NCBI RefSeq assembly: GCF_018139625.1
Contig: NZ_JAGSOH010000035.1
Location: forward strand, 1 to 58,794
Direction: 5' to 3'
Length of the DNA stretch: 58,794 nucleotides
From: Actinospica acidithermotolerans
GTDB lineage: Bacteria; Actinomycetota; Actinomycetes; Streptomycetales; Catenulisporaceae
Positions within the stretch are counted from its first letter, which is position 1, and every line of letters begins with the position of its first letter. Positions 18,218 to 41,087 of the stretch are shown piece by piece. The translations under genes and the position numbers were made by a program. A model generated the notes under the pieces. That model saw nothing but the letters and a program-made list of their open reading frames with translations. It did not search any database and was not told where the DNA came from.

Positions 18218-18397
18218 GGGCGGCTCAGGTCAGAGCGTCAAGGGCCGAACGCAGCCGGCCGAGCCTCGTGTTGAGCGTGTCGAGCGCGGCGGTCAGCTCG
18301 GCGCGGCGCGGGCGGCTCAGGTCAGAGCGTCAAGGGCCGAACGCAGCCGGCCGAGCCTCGTGTTGAGCGTGTCGAGCGCGGCGGTCAGCTCGGCGCG
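18218..18397. repeat. 88-bp perfect tandem duplication of the osaB 3' end
   Basis: Bases 18218-18305 are repeated exactly at 18310-18397 (92-bp period). The right copy holds the last 27 codons and stop of osaB; the left copy is an untranslated duplicate lying just beyond the stop in the transcription direction. No divergence between copies, so the event is very recent or an assembly artefact. Confidence 0.9.
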
Positions 18398-19047: not shown

Positions 19048-22000
19048 CTACCGTACCCGGCCGGGGCCGTCACTCGCAGTGAGCCACAGTCTGATCAGCT
19101 CGAGCAGCTGCCCGGTGACGACCGGCTTCGTCACATACTCGGAGGCGCCGGCCTCGATGGCCTTCTCGCGGTCGCCCTGCATCGCCTTCGCCGTGAGCGC
19201 GATGATCGGCAGGTCGACGAAGCGCTCCATCCGGCGTACGGCGCGCATCGTCGTGTACCCGTCCATCTCGGGCATCATGATGTCCATCAGCACGAGGTCG
19301 ATCCGGTCGGCGCGCTCGAGCATGTCGATCGCCTCAAGGCCGTTCTCCGCGTAACGGACCGTCAGCCCGTGCTGCTCCAGGACGCTGGTGAGCGCGAAGA
19401 CGTTGCGCACGTCGTCGTCCACGACGAGCACCACCTCGCCGTCGAAGCGGCCGGAGTAGCGCGGTGCGCTGTCAGTACCCTGCTGCGGGCGCCGCGCGTC
19501 GGCGCTGCCCGGGCGCCGCGACGCCGACCCCTGCGCGGAGGCCTCCACGGCGGCGCCGTGCGAGTCCGGGTCGCCGGCCAGCACGCGCTGCTCCGGCATC
19601 CGCACCCGCGGCACCGAGATCGCCTGGATCGGCGGCTCCATCGGCAGGTAGAGCGTGAACACCGAGCCGCGGCCGAGCGTGGACTGCACGGTGATCGCGC
19701 CGCCGAGCAGGTGGGCGATCTCCCGGCTGATGGACAGTCCGAGGCCGGTGCCGCCGTGCTTGCGGCTGATCGTGCCGTCCGCCTGCTGGAAGGCCTCGAA
19801 GATGATCCGCAGCTTCTCCTCGGCGATGCCGATGCCGGTGTCGGCGACCTCGAAGGCCACCGCCTTGGGCAGCGTGACCATCTCCTCGCCGTCGCCGACG
19901 TGGATCTGCTCGGCCACCGAGATGCGCAGCTCGACGGTGCCCTCCGCGGTGAACTTGGCCGCGTTGGACAGCAGGTTGCGCAGCACCTGCTGCAGCCGCT
20001 GCTCGTCGGTGTGCAGCTCGGCGGGGGCGCGCGGGTCGAGCCGGACGGCGAAGTCCAGGCCCTTCTCCGCGGTCAGCGGCCGGAAGGTCGCCTCCACGTA
20101 CTCGACCAGCGAGGAGAGCGCTATCGGCGAGGCCTGCACGTCCATCCGGCCCGCCTCGATCTTGGACAGGTCGAGGATGTCGCTGATCAGGCCGAGCAGG
20201 TCGGATCCCGCGCCGTGGATGGTCTCGGCGAACTCGATCTGCTTGACCGTCAGGTTGCCCTCGTTGTTGTCGGAGAGCAGCCGGGCGAGGATCAGCAGGC
20301 TGTTGAGCGGGGTGCGCAGCTCGTGCGACATGTTGGCGAGGAACTCGCTCTTGTACTTGCTGGCCAGGGCGAGCTGGTCGGCGCGCTCCTGCAGCACCCG
20401 GCGGGCCTGCTCGATCTCCGAGTTCTTGACCTCGATGTCCTTGTTCTGCCTGGCCAGCAGCGCGGCCTTCTCGGCGAGCTCGGCGTTCGAGCGGCGCAGC
20501 TCCTCCTGCTGCGACTGCAGCTCCTCGGAGCGCTCCTCGAGCTGGGCGGTGAGCTGCCGGGACTTGCCGAGCAGGTCCTCGGTCACCGAGTTGGCGATGA
20601 TCGTGTTCACCGTGACGCCGACGGACTCCATGATCTGGTTCAGGAAGGCCAGCTGGATCTCGGTGAACTGCTGGAAGGAGGCGATCTCGATGACCGCGAG
20701 CACCTGGTTCTCGAACAGCACCGGGAGCACGATCAGGGAGGCCGGGTCCGCGGAGCCGAGGCCGCTGCCGATCCGCAGGTAGCCGGCGGGCACCTTGCTG
20801 AGCAGGATCTGCTTGCGCTGCGCGGCGACCTGGCCGACCAGGCCCTCGCCGAGCCGGAAGGACTCGCTCTCGCCGTCCGGGGTCAGCGCGGCCCGGCCGT
20901 AGCCGGCCAGCATCCGCAGCCGGTCGCCCTCGAGCAGGTAGAACGCGCCGTGCTGGGCGTTGACCACCGGGGTGAGCTCGGCCATGATCAGCTGGGCCAC
21001 GGCCAGCGGGTCGCGCTGGCCCTGCATCAGGCTGCTGATGCGGGCCAGGTTGCCCTTGAGCCAGTCCTGGTCCTGGTTGCGCCGGGTGGTCTCGCGCAGG
21101 TTGGCGATCATCTTGTTGATGTTGTCCTTGAGCGCGTCCACCTCCCCGGACGCGTCGACGTCGATCTGCTGGGTCAGATCGCCCTTGGTCACCGCGGTGG
21201 CCACCTCGGCGATCGCGCGCACCTGGGTGGTCAGGTTCCCGGCGAGCTGGTTGACCGACTCGGTCAGCCGCTGCCAGGTGCCGGCCACGCCGGGCACGGT
21301 CGCCTGGCCGCCGAGCTGGCCCTTCGTGCCGACCTCGTGCGCGACCCGGGTGACCTCGGAGGCGAACGCGGAGAGCTGGTCGACCATCGTGTTGATGGTG
21401 TTCTTCAGCTCCAGGATCTCGCCGCGCACGTCCACGTCGATCTTCTTGGACAGGTCGCCGCGGGCCACGGCCGTGGTCACCATCGCGATGTTGCGGACCT
21501 GGCCGGTCAGGTTGTTCGCCATGACGTTGACGGTGTCGGTCAGGTCCTTCCAGGTGCCGGCCACGCCGGGGACCTTGGCCTGGCCGCCCAGCTGGCCCTC
21601 GGTGCCCACCTCGCGCGCGACCCGGGTCACCTCGTCCGCGAAGGCGGAGAGCTGGTCCACCATCGCGTTGATCGTGTTCTTCAGCTCCAGGACCTCGCCG
21701 CGCGCGTCGACGTCGATCTTCTCGGACAGGTCGCCGCGCGCGACGGCGATGGCGACCTGCGCGATGCCCCGCACCTGGGTCGTCAGGTTCGAGGCCATGA
21801 CGTTGACCGTGTCGGTCAGGTCCTTCCAGATGCCGGCGACGCCGCGCACGTGCGCCTGGCCGCCCAGCTGGCCGTCGGTACCGACCTCGCGCGCGACCCG
21901 GGTGACCTCGTCGGCGAACGCGGAGAGCTGGTCCACCATCGTGTTGACGGTGTCCTTCAGCTGGAGGATCTCGCCGCGCGCGTCGACGGTGATCTTCTGC

Positions 22001-23553
22001 GACAGGTCGCCCTGCGCCACCGCGGTCGTGACCAGCGCGATGTTACGCACCTGGCTGGTCAGGTTCGACGCCATCGAGTTCACCGAGATGGTGAGCTCCT
22101 CCCACACGCCCGCGACGCCCGGCACGGTCGCCTGGCCGCCGAGCTGCCCTTCCGTGCCCACCTCCCGGGCGACCCGGGTGACCTCGTCGGCGAACGCGGA
22201 GAGCTGGTCCACCATCGCGTTGACGGTCTTCTTCAGCTCGAGGACCTCGCCGCTCGCGTCGACGTCGATCTTCTTGGACAGGTCGCCCTGCGCCACCGCG
22301 GTCGTGACCAGCGCGATGTTCCGCACCTGGCTGGTCAGGTTCGACGCCATGCTGTTGACGGAGTTCGTCAGGTCCTTCCACGTGCCGCCCACGCCGGGGA
22401 CCCAGGCCTGGCCGCCGAGGCGGCCCTCGGTGCCGACCTCGCGCGCGACCCGGGTGACCTCGTCGGCGAAGGTGGAGAGCTGGTCGACCATCGAGTTGAT
22501 GGTCTCCTTGAGGTCCAGCATCTCGCCGGCGACCTCGACGGTGATCTTCTGCGACAGGTCGCCCTCGGCGACGGCGGTGGTGACGCCGGCTATGTCGCGC
22601 ACCTGGGCGGTCAGGTTCAGCGCCATCGAGTTGACCGAGTTCGTCAGGTCCTTCCACGTGCCGTCGGCGCCGGGCACCTCGGCCTGGCCGCCGAGGCGGC
22701 CCTCGGTGCCGAGCTCGCGGGTGACCCGGATGACCTCGGACGCGAAGCCGGAGAGCTGGTCGACCATCGAGTTGATGGTGGTCTTGAGCTCCTCCATGAC
22801 GCCCGCGGCCGGCCCCTCGACCTTGCGCGACAGGTCGCCGCCGGCGACCGCCGTGGTGACCCGCAGCAGCTCGTGCACCTGCGCGCCGAGCCGGGCCCAG
22901 GTCTGCTCCATCGAGCCGATCAGGGTGGACCACTCGCCGGGGAACTGGCCGGCCCGCGGCCCCTCGGAGGCGGGGGCGTCCGGGCGCCCGGCGAACTGGC
23001 CGGGCCCGGTCTGCTCCCCCGCGACCTGCCGGGTCATCCACTCGATCGCCTCGTGCAGCCGCAGCTGCTGGGCTGTGAGCCTGTTCACACCGCGCACGTG
23101 CCGCAGCACGTCCCCGCGCAGCGTGCGGCCGTCGACCTGGTGGTCCACCGGGACGGCCGCGGCCTCGCGCAGCTTGCCCTCGGCGAGCATCTCGACGACC
23201 TGGCTGGTCTCCTGGATCGGCAGCACCAGGTTGTCCAGCATCCCGTTCACCGATTCGACGGTGCGCTGCCAGGAGCCGCCGCCGGGCCCGGGCGCGACGC
23301 GCGCGCCGAGCCTGCCGTCGCGGCCGACCGCCTTGGAGACCCGGCCGAGCTCGGCGTGCAGGGCCTGCTCGCGGTCCACGATCTCGTTGACCACGGCCGC
23401 GATCTGCGCGATCGGCGAGCCGGGCCGCACGTCGAGGCGCCGGCGCAGGTCGCCGTCCCGGACGGAACGCAGGGTGCGCAGCGCCTCGGCCAGTTCGGCC
23501 GCGGTCGCCTCGTCCACCGCCGCATCTGCCATGGTCGTCGGGCGCTGCGTCAT
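19048..23553 (-). CDS. osaA: hybrid sensor histidine kinase OsaA with multi-HAMP array
   Basis: Soluble hybrid kinase of the NIK1/OsaA type, linked in Streptomyces to osmotic adaptation. 1501 residues, no transmembrane segment. Order: a degenerate HAMP-like part (~20-170); six 92-residue HAMP units from ~226 to ~777 (each with VTTAVAxGDLSxKI... and [18 protein letters not shown]); a partial seventh; a GAF domain (~850-1010); a coiled coil; HisKA with phospho-His in [15 protein letters not shown]; HATPase ([26 protein letters not shown]); and a C-terminal receiver ([33 protein letters not shown]). The ATG at 23553 has AAGGAG at good spacing; a GTG two codons earlier overlaps that site. Divergent from osaC, upstream of osaB. 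Confidence 0.92.
21223..22878 (-). repeat. six exact-length 276-bp HAMP-coding repeats in osaA
   Basis: From GTG-CAC (22878) to the start of the seventh unit (21222) there are exactly 1656 bp, or six units of 276 bp. Each encodes 92 residues beginning V-R/H-x-I/L and ending with NLTxQ. Units are similar but not identical in protein and DNA. The array is coding and in frame; the constant length suggests expansion by homologous unequal exchange. Confidence 0.9.
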
Positions 23554-35979: not shown

Positions 35980-37041
35980 ATGTCCCAGACCCGAGCGCCG
36001 CGGTCCACCGGCCGACCTGCGCGGCAGCGCTCCTGGCGCCGCAGGCTCGGCGCCTACAGCGGCGCGCTCGCCCTGGTGGGCGGGCTTGCCGGCGCGTGCA
36101 GCTCCGGCAGCGGTTCCGTGGAGAAGCCGAACCTCAACGTGGGCGTCGTCACCGGCATCGGTGCCGCGACCTTCGAGCTCGGCGTCAGCCAGAAGCTCTT
36201 CGACCAGAGCGGCCTGAGCCTGAACGTCACGGACTACTCGACGGACGCCGCCGCGGAGGCCGCCCTGCAGAAGGGCCAGATCGACATCGCCTTCGGCGAC
36301 TACTCGGAGTTCCTCTCCTCCAGCGGCGCGACCAGCCTGCAGGTGGTGGGCGAGGGCTACGACGCCGGCGAGAACACCATCGGCCTCGTCGCCTCGACGA
36401 GCTCCTCGCTCAAGAGCACCTCGCTCAGCGGCACCAACGGCGTCTCCTCGCAGATCGCCAACGGCGGCGTCACGGTGGACGTGCCCGACCTGGCCAGCCC
36501 CGAGTACCTGGCGCTGGCCAACTGGGCGATCTCCGAGCAGACCCCGCTCAATGTGACCGCGCAGAAGGTCAACTCGGCCGGCACCAACTCCGACGGCCCG
36601 TCCACCGCGACCACGGAGATCAACGCCGTGGTCTCCGGCTCGGCGGGCGCCGCGGTGCTGGAGGAGCCGTTCCTGACCGAGGCGATCGAGACCGGCAAGG
36701 TCGTCGAGATCGCCAACCTCGACTCCGGCAACGCCGAGAACATGCCGATCTCCGGCTACTTCGCGCTGCGCACCACGGCCCAGAAGGACCCGAACACGAT
36801 CGCCGCGTTCCAGTCCGCCCTGGCCCAGGCGCAGGCGCTCGGCAGCAGCCGGGTCGACGTGGAGGCCGCGCTGACGGCCGCCAAGGTCTCCGGCGAGGTC
36901 GCCGCCACCACCTCCATCGGCAACTACCCGACGGGTATCGTCGCGGCGAACCTGACCAACGTGCTCTCGCTGATGAGCTCGGCCGACCTGACGACCTCGA
37001 GCCTCGACGCGGCGACGCTGACCGGAACCAGCACCAGCTGA
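35980..37041 (+). CDS. lipoprotein substrate-binding protein (NMT1/SsuA-like, periplasmic-binding fold II)
   Basis: 353-residue exported solute-binding protein of the nitrate/sulfonate/taurine/thiamine-precursor superfamily. The basic N terminus (RQRSWRRRLGAY) and hydrophobic core lead to a lipobox-like LAGAC with Cys40. Mature part: NLNVGVVTGIGAATFELGVSQKLF, then AALQKGQIDIAFGDYSEFL (the conserved ligand-hinge region), FLTEAIETGKVVEIAN. ATG at 35980 with GAGAGG upstream; an in-frame start at 35932 is weaker. No ABC permease or ATPase is adjacent; it stands alone opposite cvnA. A strong terminator follows. Ligand unknown. Confidence 0.82.
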   Translation: MSQTRAPRSTGRPARQRSWRRRLGAYSGALALVGGLAGACSSGSGSVEKPNLNVGVVTGIGAATFELGVSQKLFDQSGLSLNVTDYSTDAAAEAALQKGQIDIAFGDYSEFLSSSGATSLQVVGEGYDAGENTIGLVASTSSSLKSTSLSGTNGVSSQIANGGVTVDVPDLASPEYLALANWAISEQTPLNVTAQKVNSAGTNSDGPSTATTEINAVVSGSAGAAVLEEPFLTEAIETGKVVEIANLDSGNAENMPISGYFALRTTAQKDPNTIAAFQSALAQAQALGSSRVDVEAALTAAKVSGEVAATTSIGNYPTGIVAANLTNVLSLMSSADLTTSSLDAATLTGTSTS

Positions 37042-37065
37042 CGCGCCGTAAACCCAGGCCGCACG

Positions 37066-37097
37066 TACGCCGCACCGACTGCTGTCGGTGCGGCGTA
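37066..37097 (+). terminator. strong hairpin terminator after the lipoprotein gene
   Basis: 14-bp perfect stem (TACGCCGCACCGAC with GTCGGTGCGGCGTA) and a TGCT loop, then TTAGTCT. It lies 24 bp past the stop of the substrate-binding protein gene. thyX begins 44 bp further on, so thyX needs a promoter between or reads through. Confidence 0.85.
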
Positions 37098-37141
37098 TTA
37101 GTCTCATGACCGTCAAGGTGACCATGACCGAGGAGAAGCGG

Positions 37142-37912
37142 ATGCTGATGACGAGCGACGGGACGGCCGAGGCCGCGCAGCGCGGGGCCGCGGAGGCCTC
37201 GGAGATCCGGTTCCGCTCGGACGTGACCGTGGAGCTGGTCAAGTCCAGCGCGAGCGACGCCGACGTGCTGTTCGCCGCCCGCGTCTCGACCGCCGGCGAG
37301 AAGTCCCTCGAGGAGGTCGGCGCGGACGCCGAGCGCTCCGCCGGACTGATCAACTACCTGATGCGGGACCGGCACGGCTCCCCCTTCGAGCACAACCAGT
37401 TCACCTTCTACGTCTCCGCGCCGATCTTCGTCTTCCGCGAGTTCATGCGGCACCGCACGTTCAGCTACAACGAGGAGTCCGGCCGCTACCGCCGGCTCGA
37501 GCCGGTCTTCTACGTGCCGGGCGCCGGGCGCAAGCTGGTGCAGGAGGGCAAGCCGGGCCGCTACGTGTTCGTGGACGGCAGCCCGGAGCAGCACGCACTG
37601 GTGGAGCAGACGACGCGGCGGGTCTGCGGCGAGGCGTACCGCGGCTACCTGGAGATGCTGGAGGCCGGGGTGGCGCGCGAGGTGGCGCGCGGCGTGCTGC
37701 CGGTGTCGATCTACTCCACGATGTACGCCACCTGCAACGCCAGGGCGCTGATGAACTTCCTCTCGCTGCGCACCAAGCGGGAGGACTCGACCTTCCCGTC
37801 GTTCCCGCAGCGCGAGATCGAGATGGTCGCCGAGCGGATGGAGGAGCACTTCGCCGCCGCGATGCCCCTCACCCACGCCGCCTGGAACCGCAACGGACGC
37901 GTCGCACCGTAA
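37142..37912 (+). CDS. thyX: flavin-dependent thymidylate synthase ThyX
   Basis: FAD-dependent dTMP synthase; uses methylene-tetrahydrofolate with NADPH. The 256-residue form starts at ATG 37142, 6 bp after AGGAG. Longer in-frame starts at 37106 and 37088 lie at or inside the terminator hairpin of the upstream gene, so are unlikely. The ThyX motif RHRTFSYNEESGRY is intact, preceded by DRHGSPFEHNQFTFYVSAPIFVFREFMRH; later parts include VLPVSIYSTMYATCNARALMNFLSLRT. The N-terminal ~25 residues are not conserved. Sits with dapA and RNase J in the same order as in Streptomyces. Confidence 0.93.
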   Translation: MLMTSDGTAEAAQRGAAEASEIRFRSDVTVELVKSSASDADVLFAARVSTAGEKSLEEVGADAERSAGLINYLMRDRHGSPFEHNQFTFYVSAPIFVFREFMRHRTFSYNEESGRYRRLEPVFYVPGAGRKLVQEGKPGRYVFVDGSPEQHALVEQTTRRVCGEAYRGYLEMLEAGVAREVARGVLPVSIYSTMYATCNARALMNFLSLRTKREDSTFPSFPQREIEMVAERMEEHFAAAMPLTHAAWNRNGRVAP

Positions 37913-38014
37913 CGCGCGGTGGCGCGATCAGCCGATTGTCCGACATCCACGCGATCGGATGAACCCCGCGCGGCGGCCGTGACCGCACGCCGCGCCGATC
38001 GGTAATGACGGCAG

Positions 38015-38209
38015 GACCCCGCCGCGTCGTGACCCCCCGAACTCGGCGCGGCGGGCGTCTGCCCATCACCGGCACCGACCCCGCCGCGTCGTGACACCGA
38101 GACCACCTGAACTCGGCGCGGCGGGCGTCTGCCCAATCACCGCCACCGACCCCGCCGCGTCGTGACACCGAGACCACCTGAACTCGGCGCGGCGGGCGTC
38201 TGCCCAATA
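38015..38209. repeat. three tandem copies of a 62-71-bp palindromic unit
   Basis: Units begin GACCCCGCCGCGTCGTGA at 38015, 38077 and 38148 and end at the GTCTGCCCA stretch. Copies 2 and 3 (period 71 bp) are identical across their full unit; copy 1 is 9 bp shorter (period 62). Each unit has 9-bp inverted arms CCCGCCGCG / CGCGGCGGG, and in copies 2 and 3 an inner CCGAG / CTCGG, so each can fold as a stem-loop. Confidence 0.9.
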
Positions 38210-38307
38210 CGGGGAACATCCACTGCGGACCGTCAGACGCTCGGAGACTTCGAACCACCGGACGCTCGCAGACTGCGGATCGGTGTCGCGTGCCCGCGCC
38301 GGTCCGG

Positions 38308-38313
38308 TAGCTT
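38308..38313 (+). promoter_or_regulatory. -10 element for leaderless dapA
   Basis: TAGCTT lies exactly 6 bp before the ATG at 38320, and there is no ribosome-binding sequence, so the transcript should start at or very near the start codon. The -35 is weak. Confidence 0.5.
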
Positions 38314-38319
38314 TATCCC

Positions 38320-39219
38320 ATGGCCTCCACTTATTCCAGCTCCGTGCCCTTCGGCCGCGTCGTCACCGCGATGGTCACCCCGTTCAGCGCCGATGGCGCG
38401 CTGGACCTGGACGGTGCGCGCGAGCTGGCCCGGCAGCTGGTGGAGTCCGGCAGTTCCGCCCTGGTCGTCAACGGCACCACCGGCGAGTCCCCGACGACCT
38501 CGGCCGCGGAGAAGACCGCGGTGCTCAAGGCCGTGATCGAGGCGGTCGGCGATCGGGCGCGGGTGATCGGCGGCATCGGCGGCAACAACACCGCGCACGT
38601 GCTCGAGGAGGCGAGGGCGGTGGCCGAGGCCGGTGCGCACGCGATCCTCGCCGTCACGCCGTACTACAACAAGCCGCCGCAGGAGGGCGTCTACCGGCAC
38701 TTCACCGCCGTGGCCGACGCCACCGAACTGCCGGTGATGCTCTACGACATCCCGGGCCGCACGGCCACGCCGATCGCCACCGAGACGCTGCTGCGGCTCG
38801 CCGAGCACCCGCGGATCACCGCGGTGAAGGACGCGAAGGGCGACCTCGCCGCGTCCAGCCGGGTGATGGCGGAGACCGACCTGGCCTACTACTGCGGCGA
38901 CGACGCGCTGAACCTGCCGTTCGCCGCGGTCGGCGCCGTCGGCACCGTCTCCGTGGTCTCCCACCTGGTCGGACCCGAGTTGAACGCGATGTACGAGGCC
39001 TTTTTCGCCGGCGACGTCGCGAAGGCCAGGGACATCCACCGGATGCTGCTCCCGGTGTTCACGGGTGTTTTCCGCACCCAGGGGGTAATCACTGTCAAGG
39101 CGGCCCTGCGCGCCCTCGGCCGGCCGGGCGGCCCGGTGCGGCTGCCGCAGATCGACCTGGACGAGGCCGGGCTGGCCACGCTGCGCGCGGACCTCGCCGC
39201 CGCCGGCATCGCCATCTGA
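38320..39219 (+). CDS. dapA: 4-hydroxy-tetrahydrodipicolinate synthase
   Basis: First committed enzyme of lysine/diaminopimelate synthesis; condenses pyruvate with aspartate semialdehyde. The 299-residue protein shows VTAMVTPFSADGALDLDGA, NGTTGESPTT, VTPYYNKPPQEG, the catalytic Tyr142 in LYDIPGRT and Schiff-base Lys170 in ITAVKDAKGD. The C terminus VKAALRALGRPGGPVRLP is typical. ATG start at 38320 appears leaderless. Works with dapB, encoded 2.5 kb downstream on the other strand. Followed by RNase J on the same strand after 182 bp. Confidence 0.95.
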   Translation: MASTYSSSVPFGRVVTAMVTPFSADGALDLDGARELARQLVESGSSALVVNGTTGESPTTSAAEKTAVLKAVIEAVGDRARVIGGIGGNNTAHVLEEARAVAEAGAHAILAVTPYYNKPPQEGVYRHFTAVADATELPVMLYDIPGRTATPIATETLLRLAEHPRITAVKDAKGDLAASSRVMAETDLAYYCGDDALNLPFAAVGAVGTVSVVSHLVGPELNAMYEAFFAGDVAKARDIHRMLLPVFTGVFRTQGVITVKAALRALGRPGGPVRLPQIDLDEAGLATLRADLAAAGIAI

Positions 39220-39300
39220 CCCGCCGCCCCCCGCCGCACGCACACGCTTACGGCCCTCGCGCCGGACAACCGAAGAACAACCGAATAAGGACGGCGATAC

Positions 39301-39317
39301 GCCGCGGGACCCGCGGC
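39301..39317 (+). other. small hairpin in the RNase J leader
   Basis: GCCGCGGG-A-CCCGCGGC is a perfect 8-bp inverted repeat between dapA and the RNase J gene. Followed by an A/C-rich, purine-poor unstructured leader to the AGGAG at 39390-39394. Could be a weak terminator or a processing site in the dapA-rnj transcript. Confidence 0.35.
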
Positions 39318-39401
39318 CCCGCCGCACCCCGTCGCACGACCGGACTCCGGACATACGGCAACCAACCCACACCAACAACCCGCAACACAAGGAGCCGCCA
39401 G

Positions 39402-41087
39402 ATGAGCCATCCGCACCCCGAGCTGGGGACCCCGCCGCCGCTGGCCGAAGGCGCGCTGCGCGTCACCCCGCTCGGCGGGCTCGGCGAGATCGGCCGCAAC
39501 ATGACCGTCTTCGAATACGGCGGCAAGCTGCTGATCGTGGACTGCGGGGTGCTCTTCCCCGAGCCCGAGCAGCCCGGCGTCGACCTGATCCTGCCCGACT
39601 TCACCTCGATCAGGGACCGCTACGACGACGTCGTCGCCGTGGTGCTCACGCACGGCCACGAGGACCACATCGGCGCTGTGCCCTACCTGCTCAAGGAGCG
39701 CGCCGACATCCCGCTGATCGGCTCGCAGCTGACCCTCGCGCTGATCGAGGCCAAGCTCGCCGAGCACCGGATCCGGCCGTACACGCTGGAGGTCAAGGAG
39801 GGGCAGACCGAGCGGATCGGCCCCTTCGACTGCTCCTTCCTGGCCGTGAACCACTCGATCCCGGACGCGCTGGCCGTGGTGATCAAGACCGGCGCCGGCA
39901 CCGTGCTGCACACCGGCGACTTCAAGATGGACCAGCTGCCGCTGGACGGCCGGCTCACCGACCTCGCGGGCGTCTCCAAGCTCGGCGAGGCCGGCCTCGA
40001 CCTGGTGCTGGTGGACTCCACCAACGCCGAGGTGCCCGGCTTCGTGGCGAGCGAGCGGGAGATCATGCCCGCCCTCGAGCGCGCCTTCGCGAGCGCCGAG
40101 CGGCGGCTGATCGTCGCCTCCTTCGCCAGCCACGTGCACCGCATCCAGCAGGTCCTGGACTGCGCGGTCAAGTACAAGCGGAAGGTGGCCTTCATCGGCC
40201 GCTCGATGGTCCGCAACATGGGCGTGGCCCGCGACCTGGGCTACCTCAAGGTGCCGGACGGCCTGGTGATCGACGCCAAGGTGATCGAGGAGCTGCCGCC
40301 GGAGCAGGTCGTGCTGGTGTGCACCGGTTCGCAGGGCGAGCCGATGGCCGCGCTCTCCCGGATGGCCAGCCGCGACCACCAGATCCGGATCGTGGAGAAC
40401 GACACGGTCGTGCTGGCCTCGTCGCTGATCCCGGGCAACGAGTCGGCCGTCTACCGGGTCATCAACGGGCTCAGCCGCTGGGGCGCCAACGTGGTGCACA
40501 AGGGCAACGCCAAGGTGCACGTCTCCGGCCACGCCTCGGCCGGCGAGCTGCTGTACTTCTACAACCTCGCCAAGCCGAGGAACGTCATGCCGGTGCACGG
40601 CGAGTGGCGCCACCTGCGCGCGAACGCCGACCTGGCCGTGCTCACGGGGGTTCCGCGCGAGCGGACCGTGCTGGCCGAGGACGGCGTCGCGGTGGACCTG
40701 GCCGACGGCGTCGCCAGGATCGCGGGCAAGGTCCCGTGCGGCTACGTGTACGTGGACGGCGCCTCGGTCGGCGACATCACCGAGGCCTCGCTCAAGGACC
40801 GCCGAATCCTCGGCGACGAGGGCTTCATCTCCGTCTTCGCGGTCGTCGACGCGGACACCGGCAAGGTCACCGGCACCCTGCAGGTCCAGTCCCGCGGCGC
40901 CGGCATCGACGACGAGCAGCTCACCGCCGTCGTGCCGAAGATCGAGGAGGCGCTGGCCGACGCGGCCGCCGAGGGGGTCGGCGACGCCTACCAGCTGCAG
41001 CAGATCATCCGCAGGGTGGTCGGCAAGTGGGTCAACGACTCCTTCCGCCGCCGCCCGATGATCCTGCCGGTCATCATCGAGGTCTGA
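39402..41087 (+). CDS. rnj: ribonuclease J
   Basis: Metallo-beta-lactamase/beta-CASP nuclease with endo- and 5'-to-3' exonuclease activity in mRNA decay and rRNA maturation. It has 561 residues. The metal-binding motif LTHGHEDHIGAVPYL is intact, followed by NHSIPDALAVVIKTG, GTVLHTGDFKMDQ, the beta-CASP motifs (VASFASHVHRIQQVLDCAVKYKRKVAFIGRSM, CTGSQGEPMAALSRMA) and SGHASAGELLYFYNLAKPRNVMPVHGEWRHL. The C terminus VGKWVNDSFRRRPMILPVIIEV is conserved. ATG at 39402 after AGGAG. Immediately followed by a strong terminator. Confidence 0.96.
   Translation: MSHPHPELGTPPPLAEGALRVTPLGGLGEIGRNMTVFEYGGKLLIVDCGVLFPEPEQPGVDLILPDFTSIRDRYDDVVAVVLTHGHEDHIGAVPYLLKERADIPLIGSQLTLALIEAKLAEHRIRPYTLEVKEGQTERIGPFDCSFLAVNHSIPDALAVVIKTGAGTVLHTGDFKMDQLPLDGRLTDLAGVSKLGEAGLDLVLVDSTNAEVPGFVASEREIMPALERAFASAERRLIVASFASHVHRIQQVLDCAVKYKRKVAFIGRSMVRNMGVARDLGYLKVPDGLVIDAKVIEELPPEQVVLVCTGSQGEPMAALSRMASRDHQIRIVENDTVVLASSLIPGNESAVYRVINGLSRWGANVVHKGNAKVHVSGHASAGELLYFYNLAKPRNVMPVHGEWRHLRANADLAVLTGVPRERTVLAEDGVAVDLADGVARIAGKVPCGYVYVDGASVGDITEASLKDRRILGDEGFISVFAVVDADTGKVTGTLQVQSRGAGIDDEQLTAVVPKIEEALADAAAEGVGDAYQLQQIIRRVVGKWVNDSFRRRPMILPVIIEV

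Follow-up and report, generated by a model that had tools for sequence, protein, structure and literature searches.

What kind of element is formed by the three tandem palindromic units found between thyX and dapA in Actinospica acidithermotolerans? The units lie in a DNA stretch of 58,794 nucleotides that was analysed as a whole (the window). A sequence-only reading had described them and had offered terminators of thyX, a protein-binding array, or a mobile palindromic unit as possible roles, finding no feature type to which they belonged. The analysis described here supports this interpretation in part. The repeats themselves stood, the mobile unit was not supported, thyX terminators appeared unlikely, and a feature type can now be proposed, since the element matches a small-RNA type of which F6 is the closest example.

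The array between thyX and dapA

All genes, hairpins, and promoter elements located below are on the forward strand. In the list of open reading frames thyX occupies 37088..37912, with a GTG start at 37088 and an ATG also present at 37106, and dapA, coding for 299 amino acids, occupies 38320..39219. The S. coelicolor thyX is SCO5743 according to a passage of PMC3293853. Used as queries, thyX had matches in 80 of 196 class genomes and dapA in 60 of 60 genomes, including its own. The space separating the end of thyX (37912) from the beginning of dapA (38320) indeed contains three tandem units, a number read from a draft assembly (7.9 Mb, 422 contigs), and Tandem Repeats Finder gave the array a score of 328, a period of 71, and 96% matches. 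The inverted arms CCCGCCGCG/CGCGGCGGG were found in the three copies. Copies 2 and 3, whose hairpins are at 38077..38129 and 38148..38200, are identical over 65 consecutive nt. Copy 1, with its hairpin at 38015..38059, belongs to a unit of 62 nt instead of 71 nt; of the nine bases of difference, eight are in the loop and one is in the spacer. A strong RNA hairpin of about -30 kcal/mol was predicted for each copy, and none of 200 shuffles was equally stable (z of -3.9 for copy 1 and -3.3 for copies 2 and 3). The description of three units able to form stem-loops, two of them identical and one shorter, was therefore accurate.

That description had missed that copy 1 is the conserved element and that its loop, ACCCCCCGA (38032..38040), is the conserved part, which is absent from copies 2 and 3. 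Copy 1 is an intact hairpin with a C-rich loop and a stem supported by compensation, and it scored 61.4 bits with model R1 and 53.9 bits with model R2. Its loop is a putative seed, with a motif present once in each of the 39 gaps read (see below). Copies 2 and 3 have the same stem with the loop changed to TGACACCGAGACCACCTGAACT, which has no C run, and within the window each of them scored 38.1 bits with R1 and 29.8 bits with R2. In their predicted folding an inner CCGAG/CTCGG pairing becomes possible. Two other tandem structures were observed elsewhere in the window, an exact duplication of a 92-bp unit at 18218-18397 and about six copies of a 276-bp unit, with 82% matches, at 21151-22792.

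Dispersed palindromes of the REP/BIME type were considered and rejected; many scattered intergenic copies were not found, and the element has a single locus. When copies 2 and 3 were used as the query in a DNA search of their own genome, only the array was recovered at E<0.005, the next-best match being 25 nt long with an E of 0.006, and model R2 produced one match in this genome at E<=0.5. The outcome was one locus in this genome and, in the thyX-dapA gaps read, a single copy in each relative. A plasmid search yielded 38 records at 60-80% identity, none of which covers 80% of the query; thyX was annotated in three of the five records listed.

Conservation of the hairpin and its candidate promoter

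Forty loci were taken from 60 genomes with dapA. They were reached via DapA and not via the hairpin. The thyX-dapA gap was readable in 39 of them (the window itself and 38 of 39 relatives), and every one of these gaps had a single copy of the motif [AG]ACCCCC(C)GA[AG]C and one hairpin carrying it, in which the loop core ACCCCC(C)GA is fixed and the stem varies by compensation. The fortieth locus (L050) had no thyX match; its genome, G030, carries the hairpin by model R1. Of the 54 gaps in which the motif is present, only that of this window has the triplication; exact repeats of at least 14 nt occurred in it and in two others, where they are unrelated to the hairpin. The box ATCGGATGAAC, located 5′ of the hairpin at 37954..37964, is common to genomes G000, G001, G002, and G004. 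Four loci of relatives labelled Streptomyces-like (L043, L045, L048, and L052; this label and Catenulispora-like are inferred) contain a further C-rich palindrome, CCCCCGAGGGG, located after the hairpin and before dapA.

Compensation was assessed in two alignments. In A2, made of 16 of the 30 distinct hairpins after leaving out four Catenulispora-like ones that are one base off register and near-duplicates, both members vary in 10 of 17 pairs, and 95.6% of the cells are paired, compared with 29-45% when the partner is slid. Alignment A4 includes 36 of the 54 hairpins listed, the others being eight from F6, L121 (register), and nine set aside by eye for register, mismatch, or redundancy. Thirteen of its 14 pairs changed on both sides, and 96.2% were paired compared with 29-50% when slid, a percentage that is inflated because the rows were partly picked by folding energy and by hand. 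Given this partial selection, the fair test is the stem count in an unselected set of 80 loci.

These loci came from a scan of named genomes for an ECF-type promoter and the loop, with the pattern GTAACG, 14-18 bases, CGAT, 25-40 bases, and ACCCCCGAGC, in which no stem was required. The scan yielded at least 119 stretches, and 80 of the matches listed were kept as loci; the counts that follow are among these listed matches. A stem with at least 11 of 14 pairs in register was present in 73 of the 80; at four further occurrences of the 10-mer in the scan loci, 4-7 of 14 positions paired. The seven loci below this value were L241, L243, L245, L267, L287, L295, and L276; in L276 the stem is out of register, and four of the seven come from an acidobacterium, a verrucomicrobium, a gammaproteobacterium, and Halopenitus, an archaeon. 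Although 14 to 18 bases were allowed, the promoter spacer was 16 nt in 71 of 80 sites. Of the 73 sites with a stem, 69 had a spacer of 16 nt and four had one of 15 nt, and lengths were scattered over 14-18 nt in the seven sites counted as stemless. The hairpin was at most 700 nt upstream of dapA in 54 of the 80 loci. In six more, from five Nonomuraea and [Actinomadura] parvosata, the distance between hairpin and dapA was 765-3488 nt, with likely genes in between in L282 and L312 and no intervening genes by our filter in the other four. The remaining 20 of the 26 loci not adjacent to dapA had no dapA match on the stretch examined.

In these other orders GTAACG-N16-CGAT lies near where the stem begins, CGAT being one half of the SigD consensus. 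The window has a degenerate counterpart only, consisting of a candidate -35, GTGACC (37979..37984), assigned by its position compared with relatives, and a candidate -10, CGGTAA (38000..38005), assigned by eye. The -10 equivalent is CGTAG in G001 and G002 and CGAT in the other orders, and the Streptomyces-like relatives have a different, sigma-70-like promoter, TTGCGG-18-TAGGCT. No promoter of their own was seen for copies 2 and 3. The leaderless dapA promoter noticed earlier after the array was confirmed as a -10, TAGCTT, and six bases (38308..38319) followed directly by the ATG, the whole spanning 38308-38322. The same arrangement, TAnnnT followed 4-8 bases later by an ATG or GTG in frame, was found in 54 of 54 dapA genes of the distant loci (among the matches listed) and in 49 of 1080 shuffled controls. 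With an in-frame start of leaderless type, the dapA mRNA would not include the hairpin.

The distribution of the hairpin is wide and patchy. Model R2 found it in 21 of 21 genomes, including its own. With 20 candidates scored per genome, 62 of 296 class genomes from 11 families had a match, those of family f28 being among the weakest, and 234 had none. Among the 80 genomes in which ThyX had a match, thyX loci were surveyed in 49. The loop was present in 15 of the 49 (eight Streptomyces-like and seven others), one (L167) had a four-C variant of it, and 33 had no hairpin; of these 33, 23 had gaps shorter than 100 nt, three had long gaps, and seven had no adjacent dapA. Outside the Streptomyces-like genus the hairpin was thus found in only 7 of 41 thyX loci. 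One genome, G253, had five R1 matches (L110, L111, L114, L117, and L119). None is beside dapA on the stretches examined, and at two of them the hairpin is paired in tandem, each member having its conserved loop intact.

A candidate small RNA and its alternatives

Considering these observations jointly, copy 1 is probably the hairpin of a small-RNA gene that has its own promoter, acts through its C-rich loop, is often linked to dapA, and was triplicated in this genome. The RNA would begin at the hairpin or immediately upstream of it, its exposed loop, ACCCCC(C)GA, would pair with target RNAs in the manner reported for F6 of M. smegmatis, and dapA would be transcribed separately from its own leaderless promoter further downstream. 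Two tandem duplications of the hairpin would have occurred in this genome, with copies 2 and 3 retaining the stem and changing the loop, so that read-through would give an RNA with three hairpins and one conserved loop. Copies 2 and 3 may be idle duplicates, provide extra RNA ends, or contain a new seed; the retention of the stem without the loop is not explained by a function that resides in the loop only. As to the family, the best reading of the comparisons is that of an undescribed, F6-like RNA, apparently widespread in actinobacterial families; in many actinobacteria of soil a single copy of the hairpin immediately precedes dapA. A broader proposal can be put forward tentatively, and we consider it somewhat doubtful: the RNA family would extend over at least 11 actinobacterial families, often with a SigD-type ECF promoter, F6 being one branch and the vicinity of dapA the commonest home, and the two new loops in the window would have different targets.

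Candidate targets were sought by complementarity. The loop complement TTCGGGGGGT occurred at nine places in the genome, one of them in the array, and a control pattern occurred at four. None of the eight exact complements outside the array was at a convincing gene start. Genes for Rpf (resuscitation factor) were tried following the precedent of F6, with 24 of 30 loci readable, and no complement of the putative seed was found before an rpf gene in these 24. TCGGGGG was present in L222 only, 12 nt before the domain and therefore inside the gene.

Strong GC-rich hairpins between two genes could also be transcription terminators, acting on thyX or on read-through, whose repetition would make termination ahead of dapA stronger. 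In copies 2 and 3 the stem alone is retained, as in a terminator, and in the other orders the roughly four bases where the stem closes on its 3′ side are somewhat T-rich, with a T content of 0.25-0.41 compared with 0.05-0.23 further on (75 sites among the matches listed, 5 of 80 being left out for weak folding). However, the loop core is fixed, the promoter signature ends near the start of the hairpin, no T run follows any copy in the window, and a terminator scan of the window, which allows loops of 3-8 nt only, found none. Termination of thyX, as the sequence-only reading had suggested, is disfavoured in particular because 48 of the 49 distant dapA-adjacent loci with at least 1000 bases upstream (among the matches listed) had no thyX match and the loop core is fixed. 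On the whole, we consider terminators unlikely. A role in cis, as a leader or attenuator of dapA, appears quite improbable. It would fit the link to dapA, which holds in several orders (54 of the 80 loci among the matches listed), but not the in-frame leaderless-type start of all 54 of these dapA genes or the six loci in which 765-3488 nt, and in L282 and L312 likely genes, separate the hairpin from dapA. In addition, the look-alike F6 is located between fadA2 and fadE5, as stated in a passage of PMC8557902.

An element acting as DNA, either a palindromic array bound by a protein or a mobile palindromic repeat, would account for three tandem copies of a palindromic stem in this window. Nevertheless, the stem is free to differ in sequence among relatives as long as pairing is kept, which is not expected of a protein site. 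The protein-binding array is unsupported because relatives have one copy, and the mobile unit because this genome has no second locus and relatives have the one copy at the same place. An explanation at the DNA level is thus very improbable. The triplicate in this genome offers a natural experiment on the separate parts played by stem and loop.

Comparison with F6 and other RNAs with C-rich loops

Within the literature searched and the main texts covered, no paper naming this RNA was found. Main-text look-ups of dapA and thyX led to no such RNA in PMC3765725, PMC8079986, PMC11678152, PMC8388888, and PMC11077062, and both terms are absent from the main text of the first of these. The Streptomyces small RNAs scr5583 and scr1434 resemble the hairpin in having a C-rich terminal loop (in a passage of PMC3765725); they are named after right-flanking genes other than dapA. 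Another known element, 6C RNA (RF01066), has a C-rich loop on a GC-rich stem and is found in actinobacteria. The hairpin shares these features, and the tandem double hairpins of G253, with their C-rich loops, add to the likeness. In relatives, however, the element is one hairpin, unlike 6C RNA, and the 6C model had no match in the window stretch (E<=1) or in 27 loci (E<=10 or <=5).

At the hairpin no Rfam family was over its cut-off, and the nearest was F6 (RF01791, ncRv10243), a studied mycobacterial stress RNA. Positions 37000-39500 of the window had no F6 match at E<=1. At the hairpin of other loci the F6 model had a match in 7 of 27 (1 of 11 plus 6 of 16), at 24-34 bits where the cut-off is 46. 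Scores above the cut-off were confined to family f6, with 13 of 197 class genomes. Conversely, R2 matched the F6 hairpin in 8 of 16 loci at 15-22 bits. Mutual model matches are therefore weak. Among 17 F6 loci displayed, GTAACG was upstream in 12, and CGAT followed 15-16 nt on in seven of these 12. Four F6 loci without GTAACG (L179, L180, L182, and L183) have instead the type GGTTA..GGGTA, letters that we take to be a SigF-type motif. F6 of M. tuberculosis is reported to be SigF-driven in a passage of PMC8557902, and the M. smegmatis F6 promoter has the SigD consensus GTAACG according to a passage of PMC8583896, in which an 8-nt loop of F6 pairs with the 5′-UTR of MSMEG_4640. A passage of PMC10986025 places F6 also in Rhodococcus.

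Like F6, in which the hairpin is near the 5′ end of the RNA, the element has a loop core CCCCC(C)GA, and the GTAACG promoter type is often common to F6 and the hairpins of the other orders; the window itself has only the degenerate GTGACC..CGGTAA in comparison with the SigD-type F6 promoter. The F6 loop core is GACCCCC(C)GACC, of which CCCCC(C)GA is present in the copy 1 loop ACCCCCCGA and missing from the loops of copies 2 and 3. The hairpin differs from F6 in that the loop continues with GC or AC instead of CC, the stem register is shifted by one, and the neighbourhood is dapA (thyX-dapA) and not fadA2 and fadE5. Because its scores are below the cut-off and its genomic place is another one, the hairpin was not classed as F6; it resembles F6 in outline, and by score the link is weak. 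If the same hairpin, loop core, and promoter type precede dapA in Kribbella, Nonomuraea, Actinomadura, and further genomes, and Streptomyces-like ones have the hairpin as well, a stress-linked RNA of this kind would be older and wider than Rfam shows and open to study in harmless model organisms.
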